A stretch of DNA of 32,340 nt from Bacillota bacterium (GCA_012837615.1 DUQX01000071.1:1-32340), one strand, 5' to 3'; numbered from the stretch's first letter, positions 20,303-31,658 are shown. Translations and numbers: made by a program. Notes: generated by a model from the letters alone, not told the origin.

Positions 20303-20565
20303 CTAAAAAAACTCCCCCATCCATACAAGGGACGGAGGAGCGATCTCCGCGGTACCACCCTTCTTGCCCTATCATGAGGGCCTCCTCAAGCGCGAAACCT
20401 TTCCCTTTAACGGGGGAATGCCGTCCACCCTTACACAGCAGATCAGGTAATGAAGCAGTTGCCTTCAGGGAAGAACTCCAGGGCGACCAAAAGACAACTT
20501 TCCACCGGTTCCCAGCTTTTCCGGCTCTCTGCAGGAAAGGGCTGTCCTTTTATATCCCTGTCATT
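20303..20565 (-). promoter_or_regulatory. T-box leader of the ilv operon
   Basis: Minus strand contains T-box sequence AAGGGTGGTACCGCGG, stem I-like AGAGAGCCGG..GCTGGGAACCGGTGGAAAG, and terminator CTCCTCCGTCC-CTTGTAT-GGATGGGGGAG-TTTTTTT. Confidence 0.92.
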
Positions 20566-20636
20566 GTTTTGTACATCAGTTACATTGTATTGCTTACCAT
20601 TCAGGATTGTATTGCCTGCTTACCGCTTACAAGCAT

Positions 20637-20669
20637 GTTCAAGCATATGAATTTTCAAGCATATGAAGG
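20637..20669. repeat. Direct repeat TTCAAGCATATGAA x2 upstream of the T-box leader
   Basis: gttcaagcatatgaattttcaagcatatgaagg. Confidence 0.7.
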
Positions 20670-21236: not shown

Positions 21237-21464
21237 ATGGGAACATCGGTTGCCTTACAAATTAGCGGCAGGAACAAGCTCAGAGGAAGAGTGATCAACA
21301 TTACACCCGGTATCGTAACCGCCGAGGTGGAAATCGATATCGGTAACGGCAACAGGATTACCGGGGTAATCACAAAAAATTCTCTGGAAGAAATGCAAAT
21401 TCAGACAGGGGAAGAGATCACGGCTCTGATCAAAGCAACCTCGGTCATGTTTATGAAAGAATAA
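21237..21464 (+). CDS. Stand-alone TOBE/Mop-domain protein (molbindin)
   Basis: 75 aa; ALQISGRNKLRGRVINITPGIVTAEVEIDIGNGNRITGVITKNSLEEMQIQTGEEITALIKATSVMF. Confidence 0.9.
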   Translation: MGTSVALQISGRNKLRGRVINITPGIVTAEVEIDIGNGNRITGVITKNSLEEMQIQTGEEITALIKATSVMFMKE

Positions 21465-22716: not shown

Positions 22717-22740
22717 CGTTATGTTAATGATAACATAGCG
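22717..22740. promoter_or_regulatory. ModE-box-like operator (site A)
   Basis: CGTTATGTT-AATGAT-AACATAGCG; outer palindrome TATCCG..CGGATA; covers predicted minus-strand promoter -10 (TTATCT-N17-TATCAT, 22727..22755). Confidence 0.65.
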
Positions 22741-22838
22741 GATAAAAAAAGATAACCCTCTATTTTTTTTCCATCCCTTAAATATCCGTACGTAGTAGGG
22801 GCTTAAGTAGGGATATTGTTAATGTTTTTTAGCAGTTA

Positions 22839-24134
22839 TTATGTACTCCATTGAACAGTAACTGAACCGTATTTTTCACGCGCATAATCACAACACTTCA
22901 AGAAAACAGGCCTTCCGGTCGAAAGAAGAGCCTGAGCCAGGATGGCCTCTGCAAGGGGTCTAAAACCCCGCGGCACTTCTACAGCTCCATTACCATGTAC
23001 CAACTCAAGTTGCCCCCCGTTCAGCCCGATAGCCCAGGCAATAATACTTCGGTAATGTTCCGGGAATGAAAACCTGGAGTGTATCACCAGCTTTCCACTG
23101 CTATCGAGATTGGCAAACCCGATATTGTAAGCCCGGGGGTGGCAGATTGGTTCTGCCATCGCCTTATCGCCCTGCGCGTTGTTTGATATTACCGAAGCTT
23201 CCTCCTTCCTTAAAAATTTATATTTCGCTTTTACCTTTCGAGCAGCCTTAAGTGCATTTTGCAGGGAATCAGCACAAACAACGGCAAGCACTTCATCTTT
23301 GCTTTTTATTTCCTCTCTGCAGATACTGAGAATGGGGCGGTTAAACTCAAGCCCTTTCTCCTGTACAGAGGATGCCGGACCGCTTAAGTAATTGCTCCCT
23401 AAAACATCATGGGAAGTAATTATTCGGTTAACCCCGGGCACTTGCCACGCTTCATCTACTTCGACAGCTACCAATTCTGCATGAGAGACCCCGGTACGAA
23501 CCAGCACCAGGTGCAAAGCATCAGGTGGGATCCTGATACCCAGTTCGGGGACCGGGGTCCAAGTATCCGAATCGGCGGTAATAAAATCATACGCAACTTG
23601 TTGGAGATCAATCATTTTTTTGCCAAGCGGAATCCCTGCGGCCAGCTCATTAATACCAATTTCGCCGCGAACAACCCGGGCGGCATCCTCAATGGCACCA
23701 ATCCGCTTTTGCATAACCTTTTCGCTATTACAGCATTTAAAGGGCTGCTGATAAAACCAGCTCTGTATATCTTCCCTGCCCAGGAACGAATTGCTCTCCA
23801 ACATTGAAGCTCCGGCGACAATTGCCTTTCCGGAACAACGCAAGCAACCGGGGCTGTCATGGATGGCCCAGGCCAATTGCAGAGCTTGCAGGGTTCCGGC
23901 ATTTTTTATACCTTCTTTGGTAGTAACAACAGTAACATCAGGCAACTCCCCAAGAGCAATATTGCAGGCAAAAGCTGTTTTTCCATTGATAATGATAAAA
24001 CAATTTTCGCAGTCCCCTGCGCCGCACAGGCTAATATCCAGGAGCTGGTTTTGGAAAAGGACGGCCAGGGGCACCGCAGGATCTGCGACTACTCGCCATA
24101 AAACACCGTTTATATTCAGCTCTTTTTTTATCAT
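22839..24134 (-). CDS. Truncated aldehyde oxidoreductase/xanthine dehydrogenase-like protein: 2Fe-2S domains, hammerhead domain and only the start of the Moco domain
   Basis: 431 aa; CGAGDCENCFIIINGKTAFAC (plant-type 2Fe-2S), GCLRC...KCC (degenerate second cluster), ALHLVLVRTGVSHAELVAVEVDEAWQVPGVNRIITSHDV (a/b hammerhead); ends after STGRPVFLKCCDYAREKYGSVTVQWST. Confidence 0.8.
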   Translation of the reverse strand: MIKKELNINGVLWRVVADPAVPLAVLFQNQLLDISLCGAGDCENCFIIINGKTAFACNIALGELPDVTVVTTKEGIKNAGTLQALQLAWAIHDSPGCLRCSGKAIVAGASMLESNSFLGREDIQSWFYQQPFKCCNSEKVMQKRIGAIEDAARVVRGEIGINELAAGIPLGKKMIDLQQVAYDFITADSDTWTPVPELGIRIPPDALHLVLVRTGVSHAELVAVEVDEAWQVPGVNRIITSHDVLGSNYLSGPASSVQEKGLEFNRPILSICREEIKSKDEVLAVVCADSLQNALKAARKVKAKYKFLRKEEASVISNNAQGDKAMAEPICHPRAYNIGFANLDSSGKLVIHSRFSFPEHYRSIIAWAIGLNGGQLELVHGNGAVEVPRGFRPLAEAILAQALLSTGRPVFLKCCDYAREKYGSVTVQWST

Positions 24135-24202
24135 CGGTAAACTCCAGAAAAGCTTCTTTACATCATGACTTCTTTCTTTTTAATCCACAGTTCTAGAAAC
24201 CC

Positions 24203-24226
24203 CGCTATGATAGTGTATTCATAACG
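24203..24226. promoter_or_regulatory. ModE-box-like operator (site B)
   Basis: CGCTATGAT-AGTGTA-TTCATAACG within CCCCG..CGGGG; covers -10 of predicted minus-strand promoter TTTACA-N17-TATCAT (24207..24235). Confidence 0.6.
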
Positions 24227-24235
24227 GGGTGTAAA

Positions 24236-25468
24236 TTAGAACTCAAAAATACTCCCAGCGTTATTAATCGGAATTACCGATACCATCGATTCCTCTTCTA
24301 CCGGGGGATGCCCTGCCTGCAAATCAATTAACGCATTGTAGTTTAACAACGATCTCAGCATCGTTGATTTTTGACCGGGTAATATTTTTACCTTGCCTAC
24401 ACCTTCCTCAACAAACATCCGCCCCCGCAAAAAACGGCGAGTTTTTCCGCTTTTACGGTATTCGTCAATACAGACTGCCGTGGTTATTTCCGGAGTAAAA
24501 GCTAAGCCCTGCATTTGACGCAAAACGGGGGAAACCAAAAGGTGATACCCTACCAAGCATGCCGAAGGATTGCCGGATAAGGCCAATACCGGTTTGGAAC
24601 CCCACAGTCCGCCGCCGGAGTGGCTGCCGGGTTTGGCCTGGATACCCCAGAATAATATGTTTACCCCCATTTCACTTAGGAGCGGTAATGCCTGGTGATC
24701 AAATTCCCCCAAAGCAGTGCCTCCGGTTGTAATAACCAGGTCTGCCTTATTGAACATCTCCTCCATTGTTTGCTTAAAACTGTCCCTGGTGGAGGTTCCC
24801 CTCATATACTTTACACCGACTATTTGTCCCCCATCCTGGAGGACCAGCGATTCCAATATCGGCCCGTTGCTGTCTCTGCTCTCCCCCGCTACAGGCGTTA
24901 AATGATGGGGAATTATATCCGGACCTAAACATAGAATCGCCACAGAAGGACGGCGGTTGACCAAAACCTTTTCTTGACCGAAAGCCGCCAACACACCCAG
25001 GGCTCCCGGAGTTAGCCGAGAATTGCGCCACAGGATTAAATCGCCTTCCTTAAAATCTTCCCCCTGAATTTTAACGTTAGCACCAGGGGCAATTTCCTCC
25101 TCAAGTATCAAGTAATTATCCTTTAAAACAGCTAATTCTTCGGGTATTACCGCCGCCGCACCCTCCGGCAATACTCCGCCGGTGACCACTTTTACAGTAT
25201 TACCCGGGGTAAGAGGATAAGCAGGAATTTCCCCCGAACCGAGCTCTTTCCCATTTAAGAGCTCACAGCCTCCGTGCAAGTCTTTTTTATGGACAACAAA
25301 TCCGTCAACCGCAGATTGCGCACAAGATGGCAAATCCCAGGCAGCTACCACATCTGCAGCAGCAATGCGATGTAAAGAGTCCATCAGCGATACGGTCTCC
25401 GGCTGAAGCGGAATCGTTACATTATGAAGCATCTCCCATGCTTTTTCAACAGCCACATCTGTAAGCAT
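24236..25468 (-). CDS. moeA: Molybdopterin molybdenumtransferase MoeA
   Basis: 410 aa; SAVDGFVVHKKDL, GDFKEGD-like segment, DSNGPILESLV, ITTGGTALGEFDHQ, ALSGNPSACLVGYHLLVSPVLRQM. Confidence 0.93.
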   Translation of the reverse strand: MLTDVAVEKAWEMLHNVTIPLQPETVSLMDSLHRIAAADVVAAWDLPSCAQSAVDGFVVHKKDLHGGCELLNGKELGSGEIPAYPLTPGNTVKVVTGGVLPEGAAAVIPEELAVLKDNYLILEEEIAPGANVKIQGEDFKEGDLILWRNSRLTPGALGVLAAFGQEKVLVNRRPSVAILCLGPDIIPHHLTPVAGESRDSNGPILESLVLQDGGQIVGVKYMRGTSTRDSFKQTMEEMFNKADLVITTGGTALGEFDHQALPLLSEMGVNILFWGIQAKPGSHSGGGLWGSKPVLALSGNPSACLVGYHLLVSPVLRQMQGLAFTPEITTAVCIDEYRKSGKTRRFLRGRMFVEEGVGKVKILPGQKSTMLRSLLNYNALIDLQAGHPPVEEESMVSVIPINNAGSIFEF

Positions 25469-25644
25469 CTTTTAAACCTCCGCCTGAGATGACCAGTAAA
25501 TAAGTAGCAATTACCCCACTTCCTATCATTCAATTAAAAGCAAACAGCTATTCCATTTTTGAAAATAGTGTTAACGGTTGCCATAATGACAAAACATTAC
25601 CCTTTCCGAAAAGCCTTATCCGGGTGCCTCCGTTGGCTACCATC

Positions 25645-27696
25645 TTAACCAAGCTTGACAATACGGCAGGCATTGCCTCTCATTGTAATATAACCCGAAA
25701 CTTCGTCTCTCACCCTGGTATCCAGCAGTAAATTACAGTTGGCCGACGCCCAGCCGTGGGGAACAGATACCACGCCAGGCAGTATGTCATCGGTGACCTT
25801 GGCTTTAATTTTGATCCTGCCGCGCGGGGTTTGTATGCCAATCATCTCACCATCGATGATATCATATTTCTTGGCGGTAACAGGGTTTATTTCCGCTTCC
25901 GCTTCCGGATTTAACACCCTCAAGGCCGGCACATCGCGCATCTGGGCACCGATCCACTCCTCCCGCCTGGCCCCGGTGAGCAGCGTCTCCGGATATTGCT
26001 CGGAGAAGATGGGATCAGCCGCCTTGCTCTGCTGCGGCTCCACATGGACCGGCAGGCCCGAATGCCCCAGTTCTTCCATTCTGGCAGAATAAATTTCTAT
26101 TTTTTTGCTGTCGGTGGCAAAACCTATCTTTTCATAGATATTGTATTCCTTCTCTGCAAAATACAGTCCGGCGGGATGCTCTTTTAGTTGCTGTATAGTA
26201 ACACCTGTCGTGGAGAAAAAGTGCTCTACCACTTCTTCATCCGTCTTCCAGGGGAAGTATTCGCCCAGGCCAACCCTGTGCCCCAGATTGCTCCAGATTT
26301 TCCAAATTGGCATGCTCTCATGTAGCGGATCGATAACCTTTTTGCGCAACAGGATATAGGGGACACCGTAAGAGATGGCGTAGGGGAAACCTCCGATACC
26401 GGTCTCTTCCAGGGAAGTGCAGGCAGGAAGAGCATAGTCAGCCAACTGCGAAGTTTCGGTCATGAACGGGTCTATACTGACAAATAGCTCCAGATTTTTA
26501 ATCGCTTCTAAAAAGCGGTTGGTATCGGGGAATGTTAACGCCGGATTGCTGCCGGAGCTGAAAAGCGCTTTAATCGGATACGGTTTCTCCGAGATGATGG
26601 TCTCCGTCATCATGGAGGCGGAACCGTAAGGAGGAGTGCGTTTGCCGAACTGGTGGAAAACAGGGTACTCATCGTATCCCAGGTTCTTTTCCTCTACCGG
26701 CACACGCAGGTCAGCAAAGCGGGGTTGCGGACAGGTGACCCATCCACCCGGGGTATCAACATTGCCAGTAATGGACATCAAGACGCCAAAAGCCCTTTCC
26801 GTCTGGAGGCCGTTGGCATACTGGTTCAGGTGGCCGACGCCTTCCACGATACAGGATCTTTCAGTATTCGCAAAAATTCGTGCAAAACGCCTTACTTCTG
26901 AGGCTGGGACACCGGTGACCTCTTCAGCTTTTTCCGGCGTGTATGCCTTAACATGCTCCACCAGCCTGTCAAAACCTGTGGTCCATTTGTCTACAAATTC
27001 CTTGTCCCACAGCTCTTCCGCGATGATGACGTTCATCATGGCCAGCGCCAAGAAAGCGTCGGTACCGGGACGGATCGGCTGGTAAATACCTTCCTTGGCC
27101 AGCGGAATTCGTCTTGGATCAATAACAATTAGCTTGGCTCCGGCCTGAACCCTCTCGCGTATTATGTTCCCCTGCGGGAAGTAACTTGCATCCGGATTAT
27201 GCCCCCAGAGAATAATGCAATCTGCATTCCGCGGCTCTTCCACCGGATAGCGCCCAAAGGTAATCTGACGGGCCAGAATGCGTGTGCGGAAACAAATACC
27301 TTCCGGGTTGAAGAAATTCTGGGAGCCAAAAGCTTTGGCGAAACGCTGGTTAAAGGCTGCCATCTCAAAATGTTCGACACCAACCGAGCCTGTCCAGGTA
27401 GCCAGGGTGCGGGCGCCGTACTTTTCTCTTAACTCCAGCAATTTGGCACCTATTTCGTCAAAAGCCTGGTCCCAGGAAATTCGCTGGAAACGCCCGTTCA
27501 CTTTCTTCATTGGGTACTTTAAGCGGGCTGGTGAATAAATCAGCTCCACCAGGTGTTTGCCTTTCTCGCAAAGCTCACCTTTGTTCAACCAGTTCTCCTT
27601 CGTACCTTCTACCTTAACAAGTCTGCCGTTTTCCACATAAGCGTCAATGCCGCAGCTATTAATGCATAAACCACAATCAGTCTTAATAATTTCCAT
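25645..27696 (-). CDS. Molybdopterin (bis-MGD) oxidoreductase, single catalytic subunit
   Basis: 683 aa; N-terminal CX2CX3CX27C Fe-S motif, no Tat signal; RFAKAFGSQNFFNPEGICFRTR, LIVIDPRRIPLAKEG, C-terminal molydopterin dinucleotide-binding domain; RBS AGGAGG. Confidence 0.95.
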   Translation of the reverse strand: MEIIKTDCGLCINSCGIDAYVENGRLVKVEGTKENWLNKGELCEKGKHLVELIYSPARLKYPMKKVNGRFQRISWDQAFDEIGAKLLELREKYGARTLATWTGSVGVEHFEMAAFNQRFAKAFGSQNFFNPEGICFRTRILARQITFGRYPVEEPRNADCIILWGHNPDASYFPQGNIIRERVQAGAKLIVIDPRRIPLAKEGIYQPIRPGTDAFLALAMMNVIIAEELWDKEFVDKWTTGFDRLVEHVKAYTPEKAEEVTGVPASEVRRFARIFANTERSCIVEGVGHLNQYANGLQTERAFGVLMSITGNVDTPGGWVTCPQPRFADLRVPVEEKNLGYDEYPVFHQFGKRTPPYGSASMMTETIISEKPYPIKALFSSGSNPALTFPDTNRFLEAIKNLELFVSIDPFMTETSQLADYALPACTSLEETGIGGFPYAISYGVPYILLRKKVIDPLHESMPIWKIWSNLGHRVGLGEYFPWKTDEEVVEHFFSTTGVTIQQLKEHPAGLYFAEKEYNIYEKIGFATDSKKIEIYSARMEELGHSGLPVHVEPQQSKAADPIFSEQYPETLLTGARREEWIGAQMRDVPALRVLNPEAEAEINPVTAKKYDIIDGEMIGIQTPRGRIKIKAKVTDDILPGVVSVPHGWASANCNLLLDTRVRDEVSGYITMRGNACRIVKLG

Positions 27697-27876
27697 CGTT
27701 AAACCTCCTAATAAATTTCCAGTTACCTAACTTGACATCATACGCTGCTCTAACCTTTAAAGTTTACAATGTGCAAGCGATCCGTATCCCATCAATACTT
27801 TTACCAAATTATCTCCAAACGCCAAAAATATGTAACTCATTAATAATTCCTACAAATTTACCTAAACACCCCCGTT

Positions 27877-27918
27877 CGTTATGCACCCTCAGACATTTGT
27901 GCCATATTTGACATAATG
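27877..27918. promoter_or_regulatory. Two overlapping ModE-box-like operators (sites G and C)
   Basis: G: CGTTATGCA-CCCTCA-GACATTTGT (27877-27900); C: ATTTGTGCC-ATATTT-GACATAATG (27895-27918). Confidence 0.5.
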
Positions 27919-27947
27919 AGTATAATATAAAAAACTTTCAAAGTCAA
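27919..27947 (-). promoter_or_regulatory. Promoter of the molybdopterin oxidoreductase gene
   Basis: Minus strand TTGACT-N17-TATACT; -10 directly abuts site C. Confidence 0.7.
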
Positions 27948-28087
27948 GACCATAGGTATTGTAGGGAATTTTCTTGAAATTATAGGCGCAAAAACATCGC
28001 ATTTTAACACATGTGTTTTATCTTATTTGGAACTACATGCATAGAACTAATGTTAGAACTAGAGCTACATCCACGGGGCCAAAGAAA

Positions 28088-28516
28088 CTAGAACCCATGG
28101 AAAAAGTCAAAAAAAACACTGTCTGTCACAGTGATTACATCCTTTTTATATTGTTTGTAAATTTTTAGCAGTTTCTTTCCCTTGGAAGTTAGTTCGGCAC
28201 CACTTTTTCGCCCCCCAGCCTGCCTTTGAACCAGTTTTAAACCTAGCCTTTCTTCCGTAGCCTTGATCTTACCCCAGGCCGCTCTGTAGGACATGTTTAA
28301 TTTTTCCGCCGCCTGCTTGATGGATCCCGTTTCCTCAATAGCCTGAAACAGAGCCACGCGCCCGCCGCCGAAGACAACGGCACCGTCCACTTCGAGCCAC
28401 AATTTTATTTTTGGCTGTATCTTTTTAAGAATATCTTCGTTTTCTTTTTCATTCGGCATATTTCGCTCAACTCGCTCTTTAGCTTTTCTATCTTTAATGT
28501 AAGTATAGCGAAGCAA
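28088..28516 (-). CDS. ModE-type HTH regulator lacking a TOBE domain (start may be the internal ATG near 28459)
   Basis: LEVDGAVVFGGGRVALFQAIEETGSIKQAAEKLNMSYRAAWGKIKATEERLGLKLVQRQAGGRKSGAELTSKGKKLLKIYKQY; ORF ends about 20 aa later. Confidence 0.9.
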   Translation of the reverse strand: MLRYTYIKDRKAKERVERNMPNEKENEDILKKIQPKIKLWLEVDGAVVFGGGRVALFQAIEETGSIKQAAEKLNMSYRAAWGKIKATEERLGLKLVQRQAGGRKSGAELTSKGKKLLKIYKQYKKDVITVTDSVFFDFFHGF

Positions 28517-28529
28517 CCTTGGAGTGTCA

Positions 28530-28567
28530 ATGTTGCAGGATGCCTCTTGCTTGCACGTCCTGCAACA
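28530..28567. repeat. 10-bp perfect inverted repeat between fmdE-like and ModE-like genes
   Basis: TGTTGCAGGA ... TCCTGCAACA. Confidence 0.65.
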
Positions 28568-28601
28568 TTCCCCTTACGACTTACATTCCCCTTACGACTT
28601 A
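28566..28601. repeat. 18-bp tandem duplication spanning the stop codon of the FmdE-like gene
   Basis: ATTCCCCTTACGACTTAC repeated twice. Confidence 0.9.
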
Positions 28602-29185
28602 CAAGCCGGGCATATTACCCTGCCCCCATCAAGGCTTGCCCAGGGCTCCATAAAGGCCTCACCACATTCCGCACATGAAACAAAGGGAAACAAACGAGGT
28701 TTTCCGGGAATTTTTATTTTTATCTGTTGGACATCCAGTAATTTATTATCTTTCAATTCCATTAATTCCAAACCGCGTTTACCGCGAATATCAATCCACT
28801 GCTGTTTTTCTTTTTCTGTAGCAGTCCCCACCTTTACTTTACGATGAAGAAGCAGAGGCTCATTGGAGGCCCAAAGGGGTACTTTTAGGAGAATGCGTAT
28901 TCCTTCACCGGTTCTTTTTTCCACCCAGCTAAAAGCAAATTTACCGCGATTATATATTATTAATCCATCATTACCCAGCGTGCACCCGGTAATATATTGA
29001 ACCCCGTCGATCCCGCAAACATCATTCTCACAAACCGCTATGTGGGTTTCTCCCAGCTTTCTTAATGCTTTGTCCAGCGTTGCCATTGCCAAAACACTTG
29101 CCCTGAATCCAACTGCTATACCGGGACAGATGTGCCCGTGAAAATCAACCGTTTCTTGCCATAATTCTTCATGTCGAATGGACAT
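28592..29185 (-). CDS. FmdE-family protein with C-terminal zinc-ribbon-like CX2C...CX2C; start at ATG 29185
   Basis: DFHGHICPGIAVGFRASVLAM, CENDVCGIDGVQYITGCTLGNDGLI, CAECGEAF...VICPACKS; AGGAGG RBS 6 nt before the ATG. Confidence 0.9.
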   Translation of the reverse strand: MSIRHEELWQETVDFHGHICPGIAVGFRASVLAMATLDKALRKLGETHIAVCENDVCGIDGVQYITGCTLGNDGLIIYNRGKFAFSWVEKRTGEGIRILLKVPLWASNEPLLLHRKVKVGTATEKEKQQWIDIRGKRGLELMELKDNKLLDVQQIKIKIPGKPRLFPFVSCAECGEAFMEPWASLDGGRVICPACKS

Positions 29186-29324
29186 TTCTAACCTCCTAAA
29201 ATATTTATAAATCAAAGAGTCTTTCATCTTCCGGATCGATTATGTTTTTGTCCCTTTATTATGCTTTTATAACTTTCATTGCGACTATAAAATACCAATT
29301 CTTCTTTAATCTTACTTTCAGTTA

Positions 29325-30176
29325 TTACGCTTTTGGATCTTTCATTGTGACACCGATGTTTACAGGCCGGCCAAAATACATTGAAGTAGAGACAATTGCA
29401 TCTACCCCCGTTGCCGCATATTGTTCAACATTATCTTCGTTTATACCACCGGCGGCAATACACAGAATTTGTGGAAAATCTTTTTTAATTACCTTCACCA
29501 GATCCACCAATTTTTCGGGAGGCAATTTGTCAAACTGCAACCCATCAACACCTGCCTTGCACAAAGGTATAGCCTCCTCCGGCTGCTCAATTTCAACGAC
29601 CACCTTTTTTTCGCAACTTTTTATTTTTAACTGCTCTATTATAGCAGCAGGTTTATCCCATGAGCTATCAAAAACCCGGTGCTGTTTAAAAATAAGTATC
29701 GATTCCGACAAGCCAAGCCGGTGCGGGAGCCCTCTGCCGCACAAAACAGCTTTTATGGAAAGCTCTTTTGTTCCCGGAAAGACTTTTCTAGTTGACAATA
29801 TAGACACTTTTTCGTTTACCTTCCTCGCTTTTTCCACCAGCCTGTGAGTGCGGGAGGCTATACCGCTGGCGTATTCCAGGATATTTTGAGAAGTTTTCCA
29901 GAGCAAATGCAACACCCCGGCTTTGCCGGCAACTTTCATAAAAATCTCTCCGGGGCTAATTTTTGAGCCGGAGGGGAGATACTCAAGCACCTCCCCTCCC
30001 TTCAGCACGGTTAATCTAGCCACTTCCTCGGTTCCGCATAGAACAGCTTCGTCTCTGCTGAAAAAATGCATTTCGCCATCCTTTTCAACGATATCTAGCA
30101 GATATGTTGTCAGATCCATATAGGGTATATCTTCTTTAAGCCATCTTTCCAGAGCTTCATCTGTGATATTTACCAT
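29325..30176 (-). CDS. modD: ModD-like protein (quinolinate phosphoribosyltransferase/NadC superfamily)
   Basis: 283 aa; EDIPYMDLTTYLL, SRDEAVLCGTEEVARL, NILEYASGIASRTHRLV, STRKVFPGTK; AGGAGG RBS. Confidence 0.88.
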   Translation of the reverse strand: MVNITDEALERWLKEDIPYMDLTTYLLDIVEKDGEMHFFSRDEAVLCGTEEVARLTVLKGGEVLEYLPSGSKISPGEIFMKVAGKAGVLHLLWKTSQNILEYASGIASRTHRLVEKARKVNEKVSILSTRKVFPGTKELSIKAVLCGRGLPHRLGLSESILIFKQHRVFDSSWDKPAAIIEQLKIKSCEKKVVVEIEQPEEAIPLCKAGVDGLQFDKLPPEKLVDLVKVIKKDFPQILCIAAGGINEDNVEQYAATGVDAIVSTSMYFGRPVNIGVTMKDPKA

Positions 30177-30285
30177 GGAAACCTCCTCGTAGTTTGATAA
30201 TTAATGGTGCGGAATAGCCGGAATAGATCTGAACGAAGCATTATATTTAAATAAACATAGCGATATTTAAAAAAAATGGCTACCA

Positions 30286-30305
30286 TTAATAAATATATTT
30301 ATTAA
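30286..30305. repeat. 20-bp perfect palindrome between the kinase-like gene and modD
   Basis: TTAATAAATATATTTATTAA. Confidence 0.6.
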
Positions 30306-30324
30306 AATTATCTTGTAAGATCAT

Positions 30325-31080
30325 TCAGGAAAAATATGTGCTCGATTCTAAGAGGTTGCTTACCAGAAGCTTTAACGTTTCCTGGAGTACCCCTCTTCTC
30401 TTGGATAAAAATAATAGTTCCCTTAGGATTTCCTGTTTTACCAGCTCTTTGTCCAGTCCAAGCTCACTGCTAAATATCTGGAACAATTCCCCGATCATGG
30501 CTATTTTCCACGGTGAAAAAGGGGGCGAATAGGTAAGCCCAAAAGCACAAAGGCTTCCGATATCCTCCTCCATCCTCCCCTCCCGGCATTCTTCAAAATC
30601 GATCCCGTAGATCCTCTCCCTGATAATAAAATTCCTAAAATTTACATCCCCCATAATTAACTGCCTTCCGGCAATTGCCTTCGACATAGCATAAAAATCC
30701 TTAAACCAGCAGCAAAGGCTGTAAATACTTTGATAAGTAGGCCCCTTTAGCGAACTGTTTTCAGAACCGCTGACGCTCTCCTGCCAAAAAAAATAATCAA
30801 TAAATAATGGGCCTTCCAGATATTCCAGTAAAATGTAATTTCCACCTACTCCGTACACCCTGGGAACGGGAGCCCCTTTTTCTTTTAATAAGGAGAGCAT
30901 TTTAACTTCCTTAGGCATTCTATCGGGACGAGAGTATTCCTTATACACCAAATATTTTTGGTTTTGATCCAGGCTATTCGTTTTAACCAAAAAGACATTG
31001 TTCTTTCTGCTGGTAAATTTCTTTTCCACAGAAAAACAATATAGATCTTTGTTATTTATTTGTGTAAGGTTATCTAACAC
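30325..31080 (-). CDS. Small protein-kinase/aminoglycoside-phosphotransferase-fold protein (GTG start)
   Basis: 251 aa; YLVYKEYSRPDRMPKEVKMLSLLKEKGAPVPRVYGVGGNYILLEYLEG, MGDVNFRNFIIRERIYGIDFEECREGRMEEDIG. Confidence 0.75.
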   Translation of the reverse strand: MLDNLTQINNKDLYCFSVEKKFTSRKNNVFLVKTNSLDQNQKYLVYKEYSRPDRMPKEVKMLSLLKEKGAPVPRVYGVGGNYILLEYLEGPLFIDYFFWQESVSGSENSSLKGPTYQSIYSLCCWFKDFYAMSKAIAGRQLIMGDVNFRNFIIRERIYGIDFEECREGRMEEDIGSLCAFGLTYSPPFSPWKIAMIGELFQIFSSELGLDKELVKQEILRELLFLSKRRGVLQETLKLLVSNLLESSTYFS

Positions 31081-31191
31081 AAAATCACTCCTAAAAGGAA
31101 AATGACTTGTCCGGGTTTAAGTTTCTTATAATTTTAAGCGGTAAGATAATCAAAGCTTTACATGCTTATATATTAATAACAGCAAATAACC

Positions 31192-31266
31192 AAAAAAAAG
31201 AAGTTTTGGCGGAGAAGGGCTATCATACAAACACTTCAAGGATAAGCCACCTCCACCGCCGAAACA
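31192..31266 (-). terminator. Structured hairpin with T8 tract upstream of the kinase-like gene (terminator/attenuator-like)
   Basis: Minus strand GGCGG-TGGAGGT-GGCTTATC...GATAGCC-CTTCT-CCGCC-AAAACTTCTTTTTTTT. Confidence 0.55.
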
Positions 31267-31426
31267 TATTAGGAGGTTAAGCTGTTAGCGTTGCCAATGT
31301 TAATAGGGAGTATTCAACAAATCTTCTGCAATCATTCACCTCCCAGGTTAAATTAAATTATTGCTCTAAATTAGAGTCATTATACATCTTCAAAATCATT
31401 GCGCACCATCTATGCATCATCAGGAT

Positions 31427-31450
31427 CATTATGCATCTATATACATATCG
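31427..31450. promoter_or_regulatory. ModE-box-like operator (site F)
   Basis: CATTATGCA-TCTATA-TACATATCG. Confidence 0.5.
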
Positions 31451-31481
31451 TAAAGACATTGAATCATTTCGAGTCATCAAA

Positions 31482-31502
31482 GCCCGGGGCCCGGGGCCCG
31501 GG
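31482..31502. repeat. 7-bp tandem repeat, three copies of GCCCGGG
   Basis: gcccggg gcccggg gcccggg. Confidence 0.9.
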
Positions 31503-31610
31503 AATGCCCTGGAATTTACCACCTCAGTAATATTAGCAATATTATAAAAGCTCAACCCGACAACTTCACAGGTCAACAATCAACATCTCATTAACAATTT
31601 GTAATAGGCT

Positions 31611-31658
31611 ATATGTTAATATCATTATGCCAAATTTGTCATAATGATATTAACATAT
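31611..31658. promoter_or_regulatory. 48-bp near-perfect palindrome containing ModE-box-like operator (site D, core 31623-31646)
   Basis: ATATGTTAATATCATTATG-CCAAATTTGT-CATAATGATATTAACATAT, 19-bp perfect arms. Confidence 0.75.

Follow-up and report, generated by a model that had tools for sequence, protein, structure and literature searches.

Candidate ModE-type operators of two sequence classes in a molybdenum gene island of a Bacillota bacterium

The ModE box of E. coli is ATCGNTATATA-N6-TATATANCGAT, as quoted in PMC545781. For the helix-turn-helix (HTH)-only ModE of Desulfovibrio, no E. coli-type sites were found (PMC545781); Mo/W regulation in Desulfovibrio was linked to a CGGTCACG-N14-CGTGACCG motif and to an integrase-Mop chimera (PMC545781). 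Another kind of regulator, the TaoR-like proteins, joins an HTH-17 domain to a PBP-like domain, according to PMC11980592, which cites Rajeev et al. 2019.

We compared these systems with a molybdenum (Mo) island in a 32,340-nucleotide stretch of Bacillota DNA, hereafter the window, which is contig C25 of a genome of 2,109,814 bp in 151 contigs. As in the E. coli system, there are dyads of 9+6+9 layout, a regulator of winged-HTH fold, sites that lie at promoters, and Mo transport, cofactor and enzyme genes as putative targets. The island differs in that its regulator lacks the two Mop domains and in that the genome encodes three paralogs rather than one. An earlier reading of the window from sequence alone (the sequence-only reading) had matched the sites to the E. 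coli consensus: this holds for the 9+6+9 frame and for the CGNTAT/ATANCG outer ends, with G or A at position 2, but not for the inner half, which is TATGTC or TATGCA here and TATATA in E. coli. Searched at 3 mismatches, the strict E. coli pattern shows no enrichment in this genome, with 19 matches versus 24 for the control. With the HTH-only ModE proteins of Desulfovibrio (PMC545781) and Agrobacterium (PDB 2ijl), the local regulator shares a single ModE DNA-binding domain without Mop; unlike in the Desulfovibrio report (PMC545781), the HTH-only proteins here adjoin TATGTC-N6-GACATA sites. The CGGTCACG-N14-CGTGACCG motif is absent from the window at up to 3 mismatches. The Desulfovibrio chimera, later named TunR, resembles the present system in regulating Mo/W transport but differs in its DNA-binding domain and motif.

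The genes of the island are listed here with the lettered sites that are predicted to control them.

21237..21464, plus strand: stand-alone molbindin (Mop), TIGR00638 80.9 bits
21620..22705, minus strand: MoeA-like molybdopterin-binding (MoCF) protein, PF00994; predicted target of A
22839..24134, minus strand: 431-aa protein resembling the N terminus of molybdopterin aldehyde oxidoreductase (AOR), NF045668 positions 1-307 of 905; predicted target of B
24236..25468, minus strand: MoeA, PF03453, PF00994 and PF03454
25645..27696, minus strand: molybdopterin oxidoreductase, formate-dehydrogenase-like, PF00384, PF01568 and PF04879 (match to TIGR01591 under its cut-off); predicted target of C
28088..28516, minus strand: class M regulator, ModE-type winged HTH only, TIGR00637 72 bits, PF00126
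29325..30176, minus strand: ModD, TIGR01334 205 bits, above the cut-off; predicted target of E
30325..31080, minus strand: APH/Bud32-like kinase, PF01636; predicted target of D and F

The minus strand of the island also encodes FmdE and a CbiQ-type EcfT. No operator was found at the molbindin gene. Stand-alone AOR-like proteins of 431-436 aa, without cofactor domains, are conserved beside moeA in two relatives, G001 and G018; the latter is a metagenome-assembled genome labelled Dethiobacter alkaliphilus (Bacillota, Dethiobacteria). A T-box leader (RF00230) lies at 20325-20573 of the window, 5' of a branched-chain amino acid operon.

The sites themselves, scored with matrices for the two classes (M and T) that are described below, are the following.

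A, 22717..22740: M-type, M 23.4 and T 11.1 bits; 5' of the MoeA-like (MoCF) gene
B, 24203..24226: T-type, T 20.1 and M 7.5 bits; 68 bp 5' of the 431-aa AOR-like gene
C, 27895..27918: M-type, 18.4 bits; 5' of the molybdopterin oxidoreductase gene
E, 30239..30262: M-type, M 19.0 and T 7.9 bits; 62 bp 5' of modD
F, 31427..31450: T-type, T 24.2 and M 10.5 bits; upstream of the kinase gene
D, 31623..31646: M-type, M 26.7 and T 11.1 bits

Every one of these sites is intergenic. A, B, D and F lie where the sequence-only reading had put them and match CRNTATG-N10-CATANYG with 0 mismatches, while E, with one mismatch, had been overlooked. Of a weak overlapping pair that it had also proposed, one member is site C, a good M-type site, but the other, at 27877, scores 2.2 bits. 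It had counted four intergenic copies of TATG-N10-CATA; the window has 6 copies in all, where dinucleotide shuffles lead one to expect 0.28 and none of 100 shuffles had more than 2. The two extra copies, at 20646 and 30103 (the latter within modD), are not full sites.

Several sites have features beyond the core. The palindrome of site A extends to TATCCG..CGGATA, and its counterpart in G001 (L082:9022) is M-type as well; the architecture of site C is also repeated in that relative (L082:14275). Site B is flanked by CCCC/GGGG and lies immediately past the moeA stop. A near-perfect palindrome of 48 bp (31611-31658) has site D at its core. A and B are likewise extended, with differing flanks (GATA, GGGG), and across 159 sites flank complementarity at positions -1 to -4 is modestly raised (35-43%, versus 26-30% expected). 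Between F and D, at 31480-31503, is a low-complexity tandem repeat of the CCCGGGG type.

A scan of the genome and its relatives had been set beforehand as the test by which the operator reading could be refuted. We searched the genome by pattern and then scored the matches with the matrices. The exact pattern CRNTATG-N10-CATANYG occurs just 6 times in the whole genome, 4 times in the window and as a pair on contig C131 (60 and 341), upstream of a gene truncated by the contig end; the reversed control gave 0. When one mismatch is allowed, the count rises to 20, and that of the reversed pattern to 4. The 20 sites include a pair upstream of modABC (C63:7621 and 7678), a site flanked by the genes for a MOT1 molybdate transporter and a radical-SAM protein (C131:3156), one that is 72 bp 5' of a TrmO-like gene (C137:36784) and one that is 52 bp 5' of tupA (C106:10515). 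Matches at Mo/W genes score about 17 bits or more; the other one-mismatch matches score at most about 14, with any matrix. Among relatives, the exact pattern is present in 27 of 60, and the reversed control in almost none. There, the sites precede genes for MoCF and AOR-like proteins, MoeA, molybdopterin oxidoreductase, modABC, tupABC, MOT1, the tungsten aldehyde:ferredoxin oxidoreductase (AFOR) and the kinase; in the full set of 98 genomes of the class, this one included, modD is also among the genes preceded by such sites. Of 142 sites scored by matrix, 133 lie between genes. The spread is not random, and sites are conserved 5' of Mo transport, cofactor and enzyme genes, in relatives as well, so the proposal of ModE-type operators came through; that of a single operator class did not, as we describe below.

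The genome encodes three ModE-type HTH proteins. The class M protein, encoded within the window, scores 72.0 bits against TIGR00637 (E 3.2e-20), which is below the curated cut-off of 98.5. Its AlphaFold model (pLDDT 84.5) has as its best Foldseek matches in the PDB E. coli ModE (1b9m, 1b9n and 1o7l) and the Agrobacterium protein 2ijl, with an E value of 1.1e-7 for 1b9m. Fold and family both bear out the presence of a ModE-type HTH gene inside the island. The protein has the winged-HTH DNA-binding domain of a full-length ModE; its C-terminal tandem Mop/TOBE molybdate-binding domains were not found by profile searches of the 28088-28516 product, which has no known ligand domain. The stand-alone molbindin had been put forward as the regulator's partner, which would amount to a ModE split into an HTH protein and a separate molbindin. 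We rejected this idea: a stand-alone Mop occurs in only 5 of the 12 class-M genomes (p 0.065). The class X protein (contig C123) is HTH only, with the helix motif SYSQAWKLI. The class T protein (contig C66, 762-1940) is a ModE-type HTH (PF00126/TIGR00637) fused to a PBP_like_2 domain (PF12849), and its C terminus matches TupA (NF041772, 145 bits). Class T is like TaoR in fusing a DNA-binding domain to a PBP-like domain and in its association with W/Mo enzyme and transport genes, but it differs in its domains: its HTH is of the ModE/LysR type and its other domain is TupA-like, whereas TaoR-like proteins have HTH-17 (PMC11980592). A limited literature search found no description of a ModE-TupA fusion.

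The sites next to these genes fall into two classes: class M sites read TATGYC-N6-GRCATA, and class T sites read TATGMA-N6-TKCATA. For the comparison, we used sites that were found without any constraint on half-site positions 8-9 and that lie no more than 2 kb from a regulator gene. At position 9, the class-M half-sites have C in 38 of 58 and A in 2, while the class-T half-sites have A in 37 of 44 and C in 3. At the level of whole sites, 25 of class M are C-only and 1 is A-only, as against 1 and 20 for class T (Fisher, 4e-11). The class-M loci with sites are from Bacillota, Planctomycetes, Actinomycetota and a few Deltaproteobacteria. The patterns also track the genes across genomes, most of which are draft metagenome assemblies, and related genomes were taken as independent in these p values: of 98 genomes, 11 contain the exact T pattern, and every one of these encodes class T (p 2.6e-6). 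The exact M pattern is present in 9, namely 6 of the 12 that encode class M and 3 of the 86 in which class M was not detected (p 6e-5). The other 6 class-M genomes have no exact M-pattern site. Of the 3 in which class M was not detected, two (G014 and G019) are close relatives that carry the same Mo genes; since most of the assemblies are drafts, absences such as that of class M from these two may be assembly gaps.

By matrix score, A, C, D and E are assigned to class M and B and F to class T, and these assignments do not change if the training sites of the compared genomes are dropped. Some of the sites used to train the T matrix had been selected by pattern, so its scores keep some dependence on that pattern; the comparison with positions 8-9 unconstrained is free of it. 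A, B and E are less canonical than the sites of relatives. The sequence-only reading had given all of the sites to the local protein; with two classes, B and F instead fit the paralog on C66. We also asked whether M+T pairs form a composite device of their own, but among 13 pairs within 300 bp, from six genomes, the 7 that are mixed are what is expected at random (p 0.51).

The sites lie close to promoters. D starts right after the -10 of TTGACA-17-TAATAT, and C right after that of TTGACT-17-TATACT; both promoters are on the minus strand and oriented towards the genes. B includes a -10 (TATCAT, minus strand), and no recognisable promoter was seen at F. Many matrix-scored sites adjoin or overlap a sigma-70-like promoter in a fixed register, either directly past the -10 or with the operator's TTGACATA as the -35 and a spacer of 17-18 nt; the -35 part of this fit is inherent in the M motif, but the -10 part is independent of it. 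In E. coli, the operator of ModE at modA has repressor geometry. Because C and D start just past a -10 and B contains one, we ascribe the same geometry to the present sites, and by this likeness we infer repression.

Could there be a single operator class, with every site bound by the local ModE-like protein and the differences at positions 8-9 being noise or simply tolerated? The frame CRNTATG-N10-CATANYG is common to all of the sites, related HTHs could overlap in specificity, and the same promoters carry both types. However, the split at position 9 is nearly complete between sites beside class M genes and sites beside class T genes, and the 11 genomes with the exact T pattern all carry class T and none class M, so we consider this reading unlikely. 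Class X might instead be the true binder of some sites, such as E, and of the modABC pair: that pair scores best with the X matrix, which also gives E 16.8, and exact CGTTATGCTT..AAGCATAACG sites occur in genomes that have X and not M. But genomes with the X pattern number only 4 (p 0.16), there are hardly any sites beside the class X genes themselves, and A and E score higher as M. Class X could bind at some of these sites, but as their true binder it is improbable, more so than a single class.

Nor do the palindromes seem to act mainly as RNA hairpins, whether attenuators, terminators or a Moco riboswitch. A, B and D do fold strongly as RNA (z -6.5 to -7.7), and flank complementarity is slightly above expectation. 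However, F and E fold no better than shuffles, for which reason we rejected hairpins as the main function; neither A nor D is followed by a T-run on the coding strand; sequence is conserved besides pairing; and the operators adjoin -10 elements. The covariance model of the Moco riboswitch (RF01055) had no match above its gathering score in the window or the genome. We rate the RNA reading as very improbable. Least credible of all are chance palindromes: intergenic DNA is AT-rich, but none of 100 shuffles reached the observed number of sites, and the reversed-pattern controls are near 0 across 98 genomes.

We therefore favor, with a probability of nearly 0.8, the reading that the palindromes are operators of a Mo/W regulon that is run by at least two ModE-type regulators differing at positions 8-9. 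Binding itself, repression and the oxyanion sensed by each regulator are what we infer from sequence. Within the shared 9+6+9 frame (CRNTATG...CATANYG), the regulators would differ in the bases that they recognise at positions 8-9 of the half-site. The HTH-only class M protein would read TATGYC-N6-GRCATA, at A, C, D and E. Class T, with its TupA-like tungstate-binding domain, would read TATGMA-N6-TKCATA, at B and F and also at the sites at tupA, TrmO and the MOT1/radical-SAM genes elsewhere. A bound dimer would most likely block RNA polymerase at -10/+1 or at -35, and the genes would therefore be repressed while the regulator is in its DNA-binding state.

As the two site spellings match two sister regulators, the cell seems to wire Mo and W signals into one gene set. 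An evolutionary extension of this reading, for which we see the odds as even, is that ModE duplicated in Dethiobacteria-like Bacillota and that the operators diverged at two half-site bases, which gave orthogonal, interleaved Mo and W channels with the kinase as a core member. The HTH-only ModE would then serve molybdenum enzymes and cofactor, and the ModE-TupA fusion would read intracellular tungstate via a recruited transporter subunit. The motifs are candidates for the sequences recognised by the ModE-TupA fusion and by HTH-only ModE proteins, for which PMC545781 had left both sites and sensing open. Paralogs that differ at two operator bases would also be a clean case of keeping Mo and W signals apart.

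New Mo/W genes are suggested by the motifs as well, notably those for the APH-like kinase and a TrmO-like protein, which lie in a cluster with a molybdate transporter gene. Kinase homologs were found in 11 of the 12 genomes with class M and in 11 of the other 86 (p 7e-8, which is optimistic because the genomes are related and were treated as independent). In Dethiobacter, the kinase gene adjoins the MOT1 gene, the order in G018 being TrmO-like gene, site, kinase, MOT1. The kinase (window 30325-31080; L301 1492-2250) has no sequence relative in the PDB.

Some further sites and genes were noted. TATGYC-N6-GACATA is present in deltaproteobacterial loci with HTH-only ModE homologs (L163 2924, L158 15473, L176 2766 and L186 3535), and these sites are a possible lead for the Desulfovibrio-type ModE. 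About 6 kb from the modABC pair, CGTTATACATATATAGGTATAACG (G000:C63:13880-13903) is a dyad nearer to the E. coli ModE inner half. Lastly, a radical SAM gene of the AmmeMemoRadiSam type is followed by one for a 388-aa protein without a family match (L016 917-3102); the pair is found again in G018 (L086 14582-16730), where it adjoins an operator.
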